Program-made: the position numbers and the translations under genes
Virus record (IMG/VR): IMGVR_UViG_3300046007_003821
Location: 1 to 37,451 of that record
Origin: a virus
Strand: one strand, 5' to 3'
DNA: 37,451 nucleotides
The notes under the pieces: model-generated
The model's database searches: none
What the model was told of the DNA's origin: nothing
Seen by the model: the letters and a program-made list of their open reading frames with translations, nothing else
In this document: one piece after another, positions 2,705-21,242 of the stretch
Layout: each line of letters begins with the position of its first letter
How positions within the stretch are numbered: position 1 is the stretch's first letter

Positions 2705-3099
2705 GATCACGGGACAAGGGCGCTCGGGGGGAAAGGGACGCTGCCGCTGCCTGGGTGGCGGCGGTGGGCGGTTGCGCCAGACGGGGCCAGCAGTTTGCCG
2801 GCGGGACCGAATCGCCGGATGTCGTTTGCTCGCAGGAAAACATCCACCTGGAGGTCAAGAGGACCGAGCGGGGCAATCCCTATGTGTGGATGGAGCAAGC
2901 CGTCCGCGATGCCGGTTCCAAGATCCCCGTGGTCCTGCATCGTCGGAACGGCAAAGAGTGGCTGCTGATCGCGAGGCTCACGGATGCCAGCCGACTTTCA
3001 GAGGAAATTGCTGCGACGGTTAAAGAGGTGGGCGGAGGAGCGGTTTCCCCTGCCCTACCCGGTGAGAGTGTACCTGCGGCCGAGCAGCAAGATGCGTGA
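2701..3099 (+). CDS. PD-(D/E)XK endonuclease, Holliday junction resolvase-like
   Basis: The 132-residue protein has the compact resolvase pattern: GARGERD near 7-13 (first acidic residue E11), SPD at 38-40 and EVK at 51-53, giving the E...D...ExK metal site of the archaeal Hjc/phage resolvase-like branch. Such enzymes cut four-way or branched DNA before packaging. The ATG at 2701 overlaps the upstream stop and follows GAGGTGGG; a longer in-frame reading from 2515 is translated shadow of the upstream gene. The 3' 116 bases overlap the next gene in another frame, so the last ~38 residues (Gly/Ala/Pro-rich) may be dispensable. Confidence 0.75.
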   Translation: MRSRDKGARGERDAAAAWVAAVGGCARRGQQFAGGTESPDVVCSQENIHLEVKRTERGNPYVWMEQAVRDAGSKIPVVLHRRNGKEWLLIARLTDASRLSEEIAATVKEVGGGAVSPALPGESVPAAEQQDA

Positions 3100-7143: not shown

Positions 7144-7370
7144 TGCACACCGATCTGGAATTCTGGTCTTTGGTTGTTACCTGTGCCGCAGCCGTGGTGC
7201 CGTGGGCTTTCAGCCTGCACAGCAAAGTTGCGGTCATTGCCTCCGCCGTGGAGTCACTGCCCGAGATGGTTGCCGAACTGCGAGACATGCTTGAAGAGCA
7301 TGAGACGCGCCTGGACATGCATGAAAACGAGATCAAGACTCTCAAAGAAACGGCAAGAACTGGTCACTGA
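7140..7370 (+). CDS. Membrane-anchored coiled-coil protein, 76 aa
   Basis: GGGGGA directly precedes two consecutive ATG codons (7140 and 7143). One N-terminal transmembrane helix (FWSLVVTCAAAVVPWAFSL) is followed by a heptad-rich helix (ELRDMLEEHETRLDMHENEIKTLKE). This TM-plus-coiled-coil plan resembles XhlA/haemolysin-like lysis accessory proteins and inner-membrane spanins, but could serve any membrane tether. The sequence supports the topology, not the role. Confidence 0.65.
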   Translation: MMHTDLEFWSLVVTCAAAVVPWAFSLHSKVAVIASAVESLPEMVAELRDMLEEHETRLDMHENEIKTLKETARTGH

Positions 7371-7935
7371 GTATCTTCAGCTGGTGAAGATCCTCGCCCG
7401 GTACTTTGTGGCGCAGCGTGCGCAGTGGCAGCGTTCGGTGTACGTGGAAGACCTGGAGGGTGAGGGGTATCTCGCCCTGGTCAAGGCTGCCCGCACGTAC
7501 GATCCTGCCCGCCTGCCCTATCCCAAGGCGTACTTCGCTCGGGCGATCCTCAACGCCATGCTGAAGTACATCCGCAAGGCAACCCGAACGCCGGGCCAAG
7601 AGAAGATCAGTCTCTCCGAGGCGGCAGAACTCTCGCCCCTGTACGACGCACCGGACTATCTGGCATTGGCGATTGCCGATCTGCCAGACGGGGAGAGAGA
7701 GATCGCGGTGGATCGATTCCAGAACTGCCAGACGCTGCGATCTATAGCTGATAACCATCAGCTCTCGCTGCGCGGAGCCTCTGTTCGCTCTCGCGCCTTA
7801 GCCAGAAACCTTGCGGAGTCCTTGGATATCCGCTTGCAGCCGCGCGCGACAGACCGATCATGTCGGGGACGTGATAGTAGCCGCTTCCCTTCCGCGACGA
7901 AGCCGGCTTCCGGACGCCGTCGTAAAGGAGCTTGA
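7321..7935 (+). CDS. Sigma-70-like transcription factor
   Basis: From ATG 7321 the 204-residue product has a region-2-like core, VEDLEGEGYLALVKAARTYDPARLPYPKAYFARAILNAML followed by a basic KYIRKATR, matching the DL-x-EG-x-x-G-L-x-x-A-x-x-x-F/Y-D-P pattern. A region-4-like helix-turn-helix (TLRSIADNHQLSLRGASVRSRALARNL) follows after a short linker. Such proteins redirect RNA polymerase to phage promoters. The start is uncertain: it overlaps the previous gene by 50 bases and has no clear SD. The last ~65 codons run antisense to the recombinase gene, so the tail after the HTH may be non-conserved. Confidence 0.65.
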   Translation: MKTRSRLSKKRQELVTEYLQLVKILARYFVAQRAQWQRSVYVEDLEGEGYLALVKAARTYDPARLPYPKAYFARAILNAMLKYIRKATRTPGQEKISLSEAAELSPLYDAPDYLALAIADLPDGEREIAVDRFQNCQTLRSIADNHQLSLRGASVRSRALARNLAESLDIRLQPRATDRSCRGRDSSRFPSATKPASGRRRKGA

Positions 7936-8512
7936 GCGCGATCTTGGCGTAGCTCATGCCGGCCGACCGCATCTCGCAGATGCGCTGGCCCAGCGCACGC
8001 TCCTCGGGATTCTCCACATAGGAGTTGCCCTTGCGTCTCCAGCCCCACGGTCTTGTGGTTCCGTAGGGTTGGCCCGTCTTCTTGAGGTGGCGGATCACCT
8101 CCCTGGTTCTCTGCCCCAATCGCTCGCGTTCAAACTGGGAGAACGCTGCGAACTGGTGGAACATGAGCCGGCCTTCCGGCGTGTTCAGATCCAAGGGAAG
8201 GTCCAGGATCACCATGCCCACGCCCAAGGCACTGAGCGTCTGAAGGGTGTGGGCCGCATCGGCCATGGACCTGAAGCCACGGTCCAACTTGACGAAGACG
8301 ATCACATCCCCACGGGTCACCAGATCCCAGAGCTTCTGCCCCTTGGGCCTGCGTTTCAGTGGCATGGAGCCGGTGACATCCTCGTCAACGAACAGGTGTT
8401 CGTCCGGAAGATCCAGCCCAGCCCGGTCGGCGTACTCCTTGAGCCGTGCCTGCTGGGCATCGGCAGAATTGTCCTGCTTGTCAGTCGATACTCTGGCGTA
8501 CCCGTACAGCAT
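7742..8512 (-). CDS. Serine recombinase (resolvase/invertase family)
   Basis: The 256-residue protein begins LYGYARVSTDKQDNS, the resolvase signature with the nucleophilic Ser. It continues with FVDEDVTGS, VIVFVKLDRGFRSMADA and SQFERERLGQRTREV (helix E region), and ends in a basic DNA-binding segment with an HTH (AGMSYAKIALKLL). It makes staggered double-strand breaks and rejoins DNA through a phosphoserine link. The size fits a resolvase, invertase or small transposon-type enzyme rather than a large serine integrase. GAGGTG lies just upstream of the ATG. No att or res site was recognised. It overlaps the sigma-like gene tail to tail by 194 bases. Confidence 0.9.
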   Translation of the reverse strand: MLYGYARVSTDKQDNSADAQQARLKEYADRAGLDLPDEHLFVDEDVTGSMPLKRRPKGQKLWDLVTRGDVIVFVKLDRGFRSMADAAHTLQTLSALGVGMVILDLPLDLNTPEGRLMFHQFAAFSQFERERLGQRTREVIRHLKKTGQPYGTTRPWGWRRKGNSYVENPEERALGQRICEMRSAGMSYAKIALKLLYDGVRKPASSRKGSGYYHVPDMIGLSRAAASGYPRTPQGFWLRRESEQRLRAARADGYQL

Positions 8513-15593: not shown

Positions 15594-16478
15594 TCACGCG
15601 GCATTCGCCGGATGAATGTTCCCGAACACACCCCGCAACGCACGGGGCAGCCTGACCGCAAAACCAGACCAGCGGGCGAACCAGCGTTCCCACTTGCGGC
15701 CCTTCAGCCGCAGGCCGACGCAGACTTGGGCGGGATCCAGAAAGCGAAGGTCGGACCTGTCGCCATCCACAACCCGCCACCGATACCCGTTGGGGTCGGT
15801 GTACCACGTAGGCATGCGGCCGAAGCGGTGGTACTCCCGCTTGCCGCTTGGCTGCCACGCAGAGTCAAACACCACGGAGATTGAACTCCCCGTGTCGTAG
15901 ACCCGTTGCCAGTCTTCCGCCGTCGTAGCCTCACTGACCGAATAGGTCAGGTGATAGTTCGGCGGAACCTTGCCCAGCCGCTTGGAAACCTTGGTGTAGT
16001 CCCAGTAGCGGATCGGCAGATCGAACATCTCCGGAATCGTCCGCTCCCATGGAGCATCGGAATCCAGATTGGGCCGGCAAGCGACAACCGCATCCCCTGC
16101 CCGTCGCACATAGCCCCGCAACTCGTCCAAGAGATGGCTACGAAACTCCTCCCGATTCTCCACATACCAGCGGGTGAGATTGGCCCGAATCTCGGGCACA
16201 TCACCAATGGCACCCTGCCCAGATTGGGAGGTGACACAGGGCACAGAGCAGAGCGCTAGGTCTTTGCTCTGGGCATCCTCGCGGATCGCTTCCAGCGTCC
16301 AACCCGTAGCACGCAGTTCACGGAACCGCGTGATGGGGTATGCCTTGGGGCACATGTTGTACCCCGAAGCATCGGACGCCAGCAGCGACACGGTGCAGAC
16401 CTTATAGTCCTGCATCCCGTGGCGAATCTTGGCGTTTCCTTCGCCATCTTGGACGATGCGGGCCGCATGGTAACCCAT
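15594..16478 (-). CDS. Conserved phage protein (gp with NYHLTYSxSE motif), 294 aa
   Basis: The ATG at 16478 has GAGGTGCTAC upstream; the further ATG at 16490 lacks an SD. Blocks SGYNMCPKA near 31-39, RWYVENREEFRSHLLDEL, ACRPNLDSDAPWE, IRYWDYTKV, NYHLTYSVSEAT, GSSISVVFD and VVDGDRSDLRFLDP match a large, widely spread phage family usually annotated hypothetical, with a (beta/alpha) barrel-like pattern and a GDxSDLRF segment. Relatives often have more Cys in the NMCP region and may be radical or metal enzymes; that is unproven here. Confidence 0.8.
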   Translation of the reverse strand: MGYHAARIVQDGEGNAKIRHGMQDYKVCTVSLLASDASGYNMCPKAYPITRFRELRATGWTLEAIREDAQSKDLALCSVPCVTSQSGQGAIGDVPEIRANLTRWYVENREEFRSHLLDELRGYVRRAGDAVVACRPNLDSDAPWERTIPEMFDLPIRYWDYTKVSKRLGKVPPNYHLTYSVSEATTAEDWQRVYDTGSSISVVFDSAWQPSGKREYHRFGRMPTWYTDPNGYRWRVVDGDRSDLRFLDPAQVCVGLRLKGRKWERWFARWSGFAVRLPRALRGVFGNIHPANAA

Positions 16479-16505
16479 GTAGCACCTCATCGTTAAAGAA
16501 ACCGA

Positions 16506-16662
16506 CTACCAAACGGTAGCCGAATAGCACCCTCTGGCATATTTGGGGCGTATGCCTTCCGCCGCTGCTAGGCGGTTGGCCCCACCGACCCAATCTTTCG
16601 ATATTCGGTGGCGTTGATATGGCAGCCCAGAGGGGGCTATTCGGACACCGTAGAAACGGCGC
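16506..16662 (-). ncRNA. Candidate structured RNA with long closing stem
   Basis: An 18-base arm CCGAATAGCACCCTCTGG (16520-16537) pairs with CCAGAGGGGGCTATTCGG (16627-16644) at 17 of 18 positions. Inside, CATAT (16538-16542) pairs with ATATG (16617-16621) across a 5-base bulge. The interior offers TGGGGC/GCCCCA (16544-16549/16579-16584), CCGCC/GGCGG (16559-16563/16571-16575) and CCACCGA/TCGGTGG (16582-16588/16605-16611), which partly excludes the first. Small hairpins CTACC/GGTAG and CCGT/ACGG flank it. No coding frame fits. Strand is assumed from flanking minus-strand genes. Confidence 0.5.
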
Positions 16663-16872
16663 CTAATCGCAATACGGGCCGTCTTCGTTGTGATAGACGG
16701 GCCCGATGGCATCATCGGAGTGGAAATCCTCTCTCCAGTGTGCCGGAGGATCGGAAACCACTTCCTCCTGATCGTCTTCAGGAGAGTCCAGGCGGCGTTC
16801 AGCCTCCGCGTCGGCGCGTTCGCCAGCACGGTCTGGATCGACCCACCAGTCGTATTCTGACATGTAGTCCAT
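16663..16872 (-). CDS. Acidic protein, 69 aa
   Basis: TTGGAG stands about 8 bases before the ATG at 16872. The product (MDYMSEYDWWVDPDRAGERA...) is strongly acidic with a Trp-rich start and an aromatic acidic end. It lies between two structured elements, so its mRNA would carry a hairpin on each side. Acidic phage peptides sometimes mimic DNA; function unknown. Confidence 0.6.
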   Translation of the reverse strand: MDYMSEYDWWVDPDRAGERADAEAERRLDSPEDDQEEVVSDPPAHWREDFHSDDAIGPVYHNEDGPYCD

Positions 16873-16903
16873 GGGAGACTCCAAAGTATACAGAACGGCA
16901 CCT

Positions 16904-16978
16904 GATCCCGGGCAGGCAAGCATTCAGGGATTTTAAAGCGGACGCGATGCCGCAACCCCTGCCCACCTGCCCGGGATC
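16904..16978 (-). ncRNA. Long perfect hairpin element
   Basis: GATCCCGGGCAGG at 16904-16916 and CCTGCCCGGGATC at 16966-16978 are perfectly complementary over 13 bases, with inner CAGGG/CCCTG-type and GCGG/CCGC pairings. It fills the 114-base gap between two minus-strand genes. It could be a terminator without a U-tract, an RNase III-type processing site, an sRNA or a protein-binding palindrome. Confidence 0.5.
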
Positions 16979-16986
16979 GGTCGTCG

Positions 16987-17481
16987 TCAATAAATCAAAT
17001 CGGTCGGGCATGCCAGCAGATTGGCCGCCGCATGCCAGTCACCTGCGACAGCTGCCCGCAGTTCACGGAAACCCTCCGTGCAACGGTTGCGCCGCAGGTA
17101 CTTCACACGCTCGCGGTCGGTGTAGCAGTCCGACCAGACACGCTCACATTCCTCGTCTTCCCGTCTGGACCAATCGTCCTCATCCAAGACAGGGTAAGAA
17201 TCCAGCCGCATCCGCAGCCCATCGGCTACCTTCAGCGACCATGTGTCGGACTCATGGATAGCAATCCACTCCACCCAGCCGACAGCCCAGTGGTTCTCAC
17301 GGACAACCTGAACGGTTTCCGATTCACCACCGAGGGCCGCCAGCATGGAATGGAAGTTGGACTCTTCCAAGCAGTCCGAATCCCTGGAGCGCCCGACACC
17401 CGCGGAGTAATACTCGGGCCATTCGGCACCGAAGTAATCCCGTGGCATCTTCCAGCGCTCCAGCCGTTCGGGCTGGTACAT
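16987..17481 (-). CDS. Conserved phage protein, 164 aa
   Basis: This is the promoter-proximal gene of the leftward cluster. The protein has RDSDCLEESNFHSMLAALGG, then VQVVRENHWAVGWVEWIAIHE and LDSYPVLDEDDWSRREDEE, a pattern I recognise from many phages and conjugative elements where it is hypothetical. The acidic, Trp-rich composition suggests protein binding. Start at 17481 with GAGGTG about 10 bases upstream. Role unknown. Confidence 0.75.
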   Translation of the reverse strand: MYQPERLERWKMPRDYFGAEWPEYYSAGVGRSRDSDCLEESNFHSMLAALGGESETVQVVRENHWAVGWVEWIAIHESDTWSLKVADGLRMRLDSYPVLDEDDWSRREDEECERVWSDCYTDRERVKYLRRNRCTEGFRELRAAVAGDWHAAANLLACPTDLIY

Positions 17482-17528
17482 GGGGTTACACCTCACTTTC
17501 GCTGCCCGCATACGCGGAGAGTAGTACG

Positions 17529-18513: not shown

Positions 18514-18851
18514 CGATGCACCGGGCATGATCCGGCCCGGGAAACCGTACCTTACGAAACCGAAAGGATAGGGGGAGGGATCGTACCCTTCCCGAGACTA
18601 TCACCTAAGTCTATTGGCCGCAAACACTTGCGACCGATGGGCAGGGGGTCGAAACCACGGCCAAACCCGACCCCCCATCCCCCCCCGGCGCGTCAACGGT
18701 TTCATGTCAATCCCCTCCCTGGATTTTTTCACCCCCTTGGCCCCCATGTGGTTTTCAGCGGGATTTTCCCACTTTCCCACCCGCGCATGCCGGCGTGTCG
18801 GCGGCCCGCTCAAAGCTGATTTCAGGACACTTGCTTACTGAAAGGCCCCCC

Positions 18852-21242
18852 ATGACGTGTATCTGCTGCTGCCGTACGTGCCAGGGTGGGGAATGCTGCG
18901 GCGGCGAGTGGCCCAAGCTGGTCGGCGTGTGCTGTGAGGGCGAGTGGCGTACGGGCGCCGGGGTGTGCTGTGCCGGGGTCTGGTATCCGGCCGGCTCTTC
19001 TGGCGTGTGCTGCGGGAATGTCTGGCGCACGGGCTCTGGCGAGTGCTGTGGTGGGGTCTGGCGCACGGACGCTGGCGAGTGCTGTGGTGGGACGTGGTAT
19101 CCGGATAGTAACCCCTGCCCGACAGGTCTGGTGTTCCTGCGCTGGGGGCCGGATGAGGAATGCTGCGGCTGCGTCCCCGAGACGATTTACGACAGCCGCG
19201 TTGGCGACGATGTCAGCACGGCCAGCGTGGTGGACGACCTGTGCTGCGGGTGTGAAACGTCGCTTACCCTGAACATTGACGGCTGCCTGGGTAGATGCTG
19301 CGTAGACGGCGTATGCACGGAGACATTGCAGGGCGACTGCACCGGCGACTGGTTGGGCGGCTGCTGTAGTGTCGGGTGTCCGGTCCCCTGCTGCTCGGAG
19401 GACTCAGACGGCATTGTGCAGTGCGACACCAAGAACTCGTCCGAATGCAGCGTCATTGCGAACCCGGATTGTGTGTCCGGATGCTTGGGCGAGTGCTGCA
19501 TTGACGGCGTGTCGCAGGGCCCGACAACTCAGGGGGATTGCGATTCCCTCGGCGGTCAATGGGCTGGGGTCGGCAGCACCACCTGTCAGGGCGACGGGGA
19601 CTGCCGCCAGACTTTCTCGGAAAGCTGCTGCGAGGACAAGGAAAGCTCTGCGGCCGGGCTGACGTTTACGCAGCCGAGACGCAAGCGGACGCCGCCATTC
19701 GATGGAACGCTGCGGGTCACGGTCACGGGAACGACCGACTCACCGATCCTGATCCACGGCACTCCGTTTGGGGTTGTGGGGAAGCGCTGCCGCATCAACC
19801 ACACGTTCCTGATCTGCTGGGACGAATTCCACGTGGAGCCTGTTCCGTGCGGAACGAATTTCAACAATGTCGATCTCACGGTGTGCTGGAGCCAAGAGAC
19901 AACTCCCACAGAGTCTCTGAACTTCTCTGGTTGTAACGGCCTGACGATTCGTCTCGGCGATTACGCCCGCGACTGCGTAACCACCCTTCTGTACGCGGGG
20001 AGCGGGCACACCAGCAACTCCAGCCTTGTGCTGCGGAACGACGCCACCATCTCGGCCAACGGCACCGGGGCCCTGGTGCTGACGACGCCGTTTTCCGTCA
20101 CAGCGCCCGCCGACATTACGCTGACGCTGACCGGAACAAGCCTCCACAACAACAGCGTGGCGGCGATCTCCAACCCATCCGGCAAAACCACCAGCGTTCT
20201 CAAAACGGGGTCGGGCCGCTGGGTGCTATCGGGCGTAAGCAGCTACACGGGCTCAACAACGGTCGAACAGGGCGAACTGGTCCTCGGGACGAACGCCTCT
20301 GCCAGCGGTCAGGGCGCGCTTGGCAACAACCCCCTCGCGGCCCTCACGGTCGGCAGTAACGTCGGCACGGCGGCGCTGCTCCTGAAGGCAGGCTTTGAGA
20401 TCGACGGCCGCACGCTCACCATCCCCGCCGGCTCGCAGACCGTGATCCTCGGCGGCGAGGACGCCTCCATCTTCTCAAGCAACGCCACGGTGAGTCTCGG
20501 CAGCGACGTTACGTTGCAAGCCGCGACGGGCGGCACGGTCGATTTCAACAATGCGTGGTCGAATGGCACGGGTCGGAACGTGACAGTCGGCACTGCCGGG
20601 AACACTGGCACGGTGCGGTTTGACGGCGTCAACGGATTCCTGACAACGACGGGCACGCTGTATGTCAGCTTCGGAACCTTGTCAGCCGGTGCCGGCGCGC
20701 TTCCAGGCCCAGCGGCCATCGTCGTCTCCAGCATCATGGACGCGGTGGATTTCAGCGGATCCGCAACCCTCACGCCAACTGGCCGAGCGACGATCACGGG
20801 CGCGGGTGTGTCTTTTGGCGACATCACAAACAACAACACCACCAACGCCGACGCGCTGGACTTCACTGACAGCGGAAACACCTTGGACAGCCTGTCGGGC
20901 AATGGAAACACCCGGTTCCGCGGCAATGTGACCGTCAAAGAACTGAACGGCGGAACCATCGCCCTGTCCAGCGGCGTGGTGATGACGGTTGAGCAAGGCT
21001 CGTCATCCGGCGTCATCAGCGGAGCGGGGAGTCTCGTCAAGACCACCAGCGGAACCCTCACGCTCTCTGGCGCAAACACATTCAGCGGCGGAACGACCAT
21101 CAACGGCGGAGCGATGACTGCTGGAAACGCCGATGCGTTTGGCACCGGGGCGATTACTGTCAATGCCGGGGGCACACTGAACAAGAACGGCTTTACTCTT
21201 CCCAATACCATCACCAACAACGGCGGAACCGTGAACCCCTAA
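18852..21242 (+). CDS. Cys-repeat and autotransporter-type beta-repeat protein
   Basis: The 796-residue protein has three zones. Residues ~13-90 hold six units of G-x-C-C-x3-W (GECCGGEW, GVCCEGEW, GVCCAGVW, GVCCGNVW, GECCGGVW, GECCGGTW). Residues ~145-260 carry CC-x-D-G ... GDC ... GG-W-x-G units known from Planctomycetota proteins. Residues ~390-796 form Ser/Thr/Gly/Asn-rich beta repeats, including two clear autotransporter-associated repeats (TGSGRWVLSGVSSYTGSTTV at 452 and SGTLTLSGANTFSGGTTING near 735). No signal peptide is present. A virion fibre or adhesin with a beta-helix is the best reading. ATG 18852 follows GAAAGG; an upstream ATG at 18795 lacks an SD. Confidence 0.75.
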   Translation: MTCICCCRTCQGGECCGGEWPKLVGVCCEGEWRTGAGVCCAGVWYPAGSSGVCCGNVWRTGSGECCGGVWRTDAGECCGGTWYPDSNPCPTGLVFLRWGPDEECCGCVPETIYDSRVGDDVSTASVVDDLCCGCETSLTLNIDGCLGRCCVDGVCTETLQGDCTGDWLGGCCSVGCPVPCCSEDSDGIVQCDTKNSSECSVIANPDCVSGCLGECCIDGVSQGPTTQGDCDSLGGQWAGVGSTTCQGDGDCRQTFSESCCEDKESSAAGLTFTQPRRKRTPPFDGTLRVTVTGTTDSPILIHGTPFGVVGKRCRINHTFLICWDEFHVEPVPCGTNFNNVDLTVCWSQETTPTESLNFSGCNGLTIRLGDYARDCVTTLLYAGSGHTSNSSLVLRNDATISANGTGALVLTTPFSVTAPADITLTLTGTSLHNNSVAAISNPSGKTTSVLKTGSGRWVLSGVSSYTGSTTVEQGELVLGTNASASGQGALGNNPLAALTVGSNVGTAALLLKAGFEIDGRTLTIPAGSQTVILGGEDASIFSSNATVSLGSDVTLQAATGGTVDFNNAWSNGTGRNVTVGTAGNTGTVRFDGVNGFLTTTGTLYVSFGTLSAGAGALPGPAAIVVSSIMDAVDFSGSATLTPTGRATITGAGVSFGDITNNNTTNADALDFTDSGNTLDSLSGNGNTRFRGNVTVKELNGGTIALSSGVVMTVEQGSSSGVISGAGSLVKTTSGTLTLSGANTFSGGTTINGGAMTAGNADAFGTGAITVNAGGTLNKNGFTLPNTITNNGGTVNP

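Follow-up and report, generated by a model that had tools for sequence, protein, structure and literature searches.

Structured leaders are known in phages: the stem of the lambda N leader lies upstream of that gene's Shine-Dalgarno sequence, and the RNase III sites of the T7 early region are stems between genes, several of them similar. Modulation of the lambda N leader by RNase III is noted in the passage of PMC5725501 that cites Wilson et al. 2002. The ESAS of cluster K mycobacteriophages are ~17-bp imperfect inverted repeats with a variable spacer, mostly of 4–13 bp, that lie just upstream of translation starts in many copies per genome and are retained across unrelated genes; their authors found little support for mRNA hairpins (PMC3203893). 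Phages also encode non-coding Racr RNA anti-CRISPRs, solitary repeats that mimic CRISPR repeats (PMC10651486).

Here we describe a locus in the window, the whole 37,451-base stretch analysed, which comes from a virus record and carries terminase, portal and capsid genes. Comparison of related sequences indicates that it holds a folded RNA, previously uncatalogued, that lies before one gene slot in ~30 related environmental phages. Elsewhere in the window, positions 7174–7935 encode an RNA polymerase sigma-factor-like protein (phrog_351), adjoining a serine recombinase (7742–8512), and positions 18795–21242 encode an 815-aa protein with a cysteine-rich N-terminus, autotransporter-like repeats and a weak tail fibre likeness.

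The inverted repeat and its interior

The features of the locus are listed in Table 1. Stem P1, whose arms are complementary at 17 of 18 positions as a sequence-only reading of the window had claimed, is the core of an extended pair of 25-nt arms (16513–16537 and 16627–16651) that are 88% complementary. It is also unique of its class: the window contains no further inverted repeat whose arms reach 18 bp or more with a single mismatch or none and a spacing below 250 nt, and none of this quality arose in eight dinucleotide shuffles of the window. Two inner helices, 16544–16549/16579–16584 and 16582–16588/16605–16611, had been read as mutually exclusive, as in a switch. Their complementarity is present and they do overlap, but real alternation is not borne out, since pair probabilities computed for the transcribed strand are 0.90–0.93 for the second and ≤0.01 for the first. 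The interior in which they lie (class C) is common only to the window and L010, which differ at three positions and so provide no test of a switch.

Folding of both strands, also proposed in that reading, gave z-scores of −4.6 (minus strand) and −4.2 (plus strand) for the element. Values of −3 to −8 are often seen in these phages for coding windows that lie downstream of a leader, so the folding z-score is weak evidence for the element, and we rejected it as proof of structure; the evidence that counts for a structured RNA is comparative, not folding energy.

Table 1. Features of the array locus, in the order of transcription
Feature	Position	Strand	Remarks
Upstream gene, phrog_4313-like	16987..17511	(-)	slot occupant differs between phages
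Sister module X (CGATCCCGGGCAGG...CCTGCCCGGGATCAGG)	16895..16987	(-)	directly after stop codon of 16987-17511 gene
Small gene, ~69 aa, start MDYMSEYDWW	16663..16872	(-)	between X and I1
5' linker hairpin GCGCCGTTTCTACGGTGT	16645..16662	(-)	absent: L006, L013, L016, L023
Module I1, closed by P1, interior class C	16513..16651	(-)	interior shared with L010 only
P1 5' arm CCGAATAGCCCCCTCTGG	16627..16644	(-)	pairs with 3' arm at 17 of 18
Inner hairpin CCACCGA...UCGGUGG	16582..16611	(-)	pair probability ~0.93
P1 3' arm CCAGAGGGTGCTATTCGG, one C/U mismatch with 5' arm	16520..16537	(-)	
Terminal hairpin CTACC-gttt-GGTAG	16506..16519	(-)	~27 nt before ATG
Start hairpin (predicted), in which GATGAGGTGC and the ATG pair with GP88 codons	~16454..16492	(-)	-21.3 kcal/mol, 50-nt start region
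GP88-family gene (PF17338, phrog_1617)	15594..16478	(-)	slot behind array

Relatives of the element

IMG/VR was scanned with protein and DNA queries, which recovered the element in ~25 additional phage contigs and the sister module alone in ~11 more; the sequences are related among themselves, and p-values given below are inflated. A distant blastn search of a cultured-phage collection found no match to the element. Among one genome each of 84,980 prokaryote species the arm pattern had 0 matches and the linker pattern three, all chance on inspection. The Rfam 15 covariance models had 0 matches in the window at the gathering score, which is consistent with an uncatalogued RNA, and six related loci compared with Rfam at E up to 0.5 gave a single chance match, which was below threshold and lay outside the array. 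A pattern made from the interior only matched only phages already recovered by the arm pattern, so the conservation of the arms is not a product of the arm pattern.

Base-pair covariation and the transcribed strand

For the comparison of stems, pairing registers were fixed by the conserved ends, and the inner pairs had been left unused when the sequences were collected. In the I1 arms 97.1% of cells are paired and 11 of 21 pairs are changed on both sides, while none of 500 shuffles was as high and slid registers were 36–54% paired. The X arms are 96.0% paired. When the 20 distinct arms of all module types are taken together, several of their stem variants having come from the X-module scan, 95.3% of cells are paired (slid registers, 30–49%) and 13 of 16 pairs (90 cells) are changed on both sides. 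The compensatory change in the long stem for which the sequence-only reading had asked is thus present beyond the controls, and on this comparative evidence the element is a bona fide structured RNA.

RNAalifold applied to 13 type A sequences gave 44 pairs, with a three-way junction; the inner hairpin shows compensatory change among these 13 sequences, and type A interiors retain conserved unpaired stretches in 13 phages. In six phages (L008, L011, L015, L018, L019 and L022) the inner loop contains UCAGC, the complement of a GCUGA past the 5' arm; this is a possible conserved pseudoknot.

Three observations favour RNA over DNA: the sense strand folds better in 22 of 26 I1 modules and in all 23 X modules, variable stem pairs drift via G-U on the sense strand, and every array is co-oriented with the gene downstream of it and reaches as far as the ribosome-binding site of that gene. 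The lengths of the modules are not multiples of three, so they are non-coding, as had been proposed.

Modules and arrays

All modules obey the rule 5'-ACGG-NNN-YCGA-[stem]-interior-[stem']-TTCGG-YT-GCCGT-3', apart from the ending in one phage subgroup, where modules end in TTCAG or ATCAG with GTGCCG. At least six unrelated stem sequences conform to it; the I1 stem has at least four versions (CCCCCTCTGG, CCCGCCATG, CCGCAGTC and GCGGTCGGGCG), the X stem is CCCGGGCAG and the Z stem is AAGCGTTCACGG. The boundary TTCGGYTGCCGTT is repeated after most modules. The interiors are ~40 to >200 nt long and largely unrelated to one another, falling into at least eight classes under a common end stem, of which A, B and D have a hairpin position in common.

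Arrays contain one to four modules in tandem: X alone, X-I1, V-X-I1, X-Z-I1, X-Y-I1, X-W-I1, V-Z-Y-I1 (L021, from fixed-motif matches only, where an additional X is possible) and V-X-I1-I1, the two I1 modules being those of L025. In several relatives X is followed directly by I1, with no small gene between them as in the window. Each of 22 contigs has one array locus, and in a whole-contig pattern search the boundary was found at the array locus only, besides single one-mismatch matches. In X-only phages the boundary runs straight into the terminal hairpin and ribosome-binding site, which indicates that modules are gained or lost at the boundary, and the difference between X-only L032 and phages with X and I1 is clean at that point. 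L036 (59,201 bases) and L037 (117,778 bases) have the same X array; L037 is almost double in length and is perhaps an assembly dimer.

The sequence-only reading had placed a structured leader here, and the element does lie downstream of a stop codon and upstream of the ribosome-binding site that serves the GP88-family gene; what it overlooked is the tandem, modular build with its sister module and the hairpin at the start codon.

The gene slot and its start

The slot behind the array is occupied by GP88a, GP88b or phrog_2554, which are unrelated and occur one per phage; the GP88 profile had no match to the phrog_2554 profile. The single exception is L040, where an X module precedes a DUF7249 gene and no start hairpin is present. 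No association exists between interior class and slot gene (permutation p 0.74), and phages whose GP88 proteins are 95–97% identical carry three different interiors (C in the window, A in L002 and L004, B in L003). The interior is therefore not an operator for the slot product, and an autoregulatory operator was rejected since identical interiors stand before three gene families; the same two observations suggest that modules move by recombination.

In the structure model of GP88 (mean pLDDT 61.6) strands and helices alternate; the best matches in a fold search include UVDE and the radical SAM protein spore photoproduct lyase, and none was significant. The phrog_2554 model was unusable (pLDDT 35). 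More distant GP88 phages (47–51% identity; L065–L080) have a different leader, with long hairpins before the start and one to five tandem copies of TGCGG[AG]CAGC directly before it, ~25–110 nt upstream (start at 3000); in the window, a copy of this motif (~17501–17510) also precedes a gene with its start near 17478. Upstream of GP88 in L063 (~2660–2790) are two successive near-perfect long hairpins with similar loops and different stems, a further sign of stem replacement with pairing retained.

The 5-bp terminal hairpin lies 18–27 nt before the ATG among the phages, and its closing pair is C-G, U-A or G-C with pairing kept, although in two or three rows of this comparison the script took a different nearby hairpin. 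Next to it, the Shine-Dalgarno sequence and ATG are predicted to pair with the first codons in all three slot-gene groups, despite their different coding sequences. At slot starts this folding is at or below −18.5 kcal/mol in 29 of 30 distinct cases (median −21.0), compared with a median of −12.4 kcal/mol for 170 control starts from the same contigs and mostly −5 to −11 kcal/mol for GP88 homologues with other leaders (L059, −15.7). Synonymous recoding weakened the mean hairpin for all ten slot starts tested, and recoded starts matched the observed stability in 0–13% of trials, the test being weak where this is 10–13%. L027 and L047 pair GGTGCGT/ACGTGCC and GGTACGT/ACGTACC, respectively. Comparison among phages thus shows the start to be locked, the array to be modular and its pairing to be that of the sense strand.

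The predicted start hairpin is the same with or without the array, which neither forms nor opens it; that the array itself locks the start was rejected, the partner being the coding sequence. Nor is pairing between array interiors and their own start regions enriched (p 0.41). Any direct link between array and start is accordingly putative.

Other candidates were considered for the locus as a whole. A riboswitch was rejected (the interior is not conserved across phages, and the probability of the competing helix is given above), as was an integron attC site (GTTRRRY core at 0 of 13 boundaries). The window contains a single two-mismatch match to the 13-bp GGGATAGGAGCCC motif of ESAS/SAS, no more than chance would give, and it does not lie at a start. 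A search for an intrinsic terminator at the 3' hairpin gave one match in the window, at chance level and with a T-run that is not conserved, and a promoter consensus search found none.

Function of the array

Because the start signal is hidden in a hairpin, the element most likely controls translation of the slot gene, and we think it rather probable that the array is a cis-acting leader of exchangeable RNA modules through which translation at this one gene slot is controlled. In the sense of the operon, one to four stem-closed modules, each ending in TTCGGYTGCCGTT, come after the upstream stop codon, then the 5-bp hairpin and the Shine-Dalgarno sequence, and array and start hairpin are retained whichever of the three genes occupies the slot. 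The start hairpin would keep default translation low, and the array would shield the start from ribosomes finishing the upstream gene. The long double-stranded stems may bind a host or phage factor, such as RNase III, a ribosome-standby factor or an RNA-binding protein, and binding or cleavage would determine how often the start opens; the identity of this factor, the sign of the regulation and its timing during infection are conjectural parts of the proposal. If stem and boundary carry the basic function, the interior would be swappable.

Tandem, swappable interiors nonetheless exceed the needs of simple insulation, and for this reason the main rival is that the modules are RNA cargo, excised from the array as from a platform and acting in trans as decoys or small RNAs, e.g. 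to counter host defences. Stems and linkers would then be processing sites, and interiors would diversify as in an arms race. We consider this possible but rather unlikely. It would account for the eight or more interior classes under one end stem, for tandem arrays that can hold two I1 modules, for interiors that are unlinked to the downstream gene even among near-identical GP88 phages, and for the conserved unpaired stretches of type A; yet the array is always joined to one gene slot and a locked start, and Rfam small RNAs have no sequence similarity to it. A bolder form of the idea, in which phages store RNA modules with a common end stem and boundary sequence at one locus, gain, lose and swap them like gene cassettes and release them as small RNAs (e.g., anti-defence), the locked start tying one protein to the same transcript, also seems to us unlikely.

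Two further readings are less likely. The stems could be only sites of mRNA processing or stability, at which RNase III separates upstream from downstream messages, as it does in T7 early mRNA, without translational control: their length (at least 17–18 bp) makes them candidate RNase III sites, their pairing is conserved but not their sequence, and the array sits exactly between two genes. Such sites would be expected at many gene boundaries rather than at one locus per genome, and would need neither a conserved interior structure nor a locked start, so that we regard this reading as improbable. We find it still harder to credit that the array is a DNA boundary or recombination element, whose boundaries, repeated and inverted, would foster the exchange of modules and genes, the RNA fold being incidental. 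The boundary after most modules, the clean gain and loss of modules there and the swapping of both flanking genes fit such an element. Against it, the array keeps one orientation with respect to transcription, its G-U pairs occur on just one strand, the sense strand folds better, the start codon has its hairpin and the boundaries are missing the GTTRRRY core.

Comparison with known systems

The array adds an RNA family backed by covariation in uncultured phages, gives a handle on the GP88 family, and provides a clear test case for the idea that RNA parts, like genes, are swapped among phages. We found no record of a leader of interchangeable modules in which stems are replaced while pairing and ends are kept, with a locked start on three genes. 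By position, ESAS are the closest known system, being likewise inverted repeats before the starts of unrelated phage genes; in contrast to them, the array has a structured interior, one locus per phage, strongly supported pairing and no SAS motif. The T7 early RNase III sites are likewise stem structures between phage genes, whereas here a single array is present, whose stems are unrelated in sequence and whose interiors are structured and multi-branched. Racr RNAs, as phage non-coding RNAs, are a likeness only if the modules are cargo. In its possible working the array is closest to the lambda N leader (PMC5725501), being likewise a structured leader upstream of a gene's Shine-Dalgarno sequence, with proposed control of translation and possible cutting by RNase III; it differs in having several exchangeable modules, no single conserved interior and no identified boxA/boxB, and in a start hairpin that is formed with the coding sequence.
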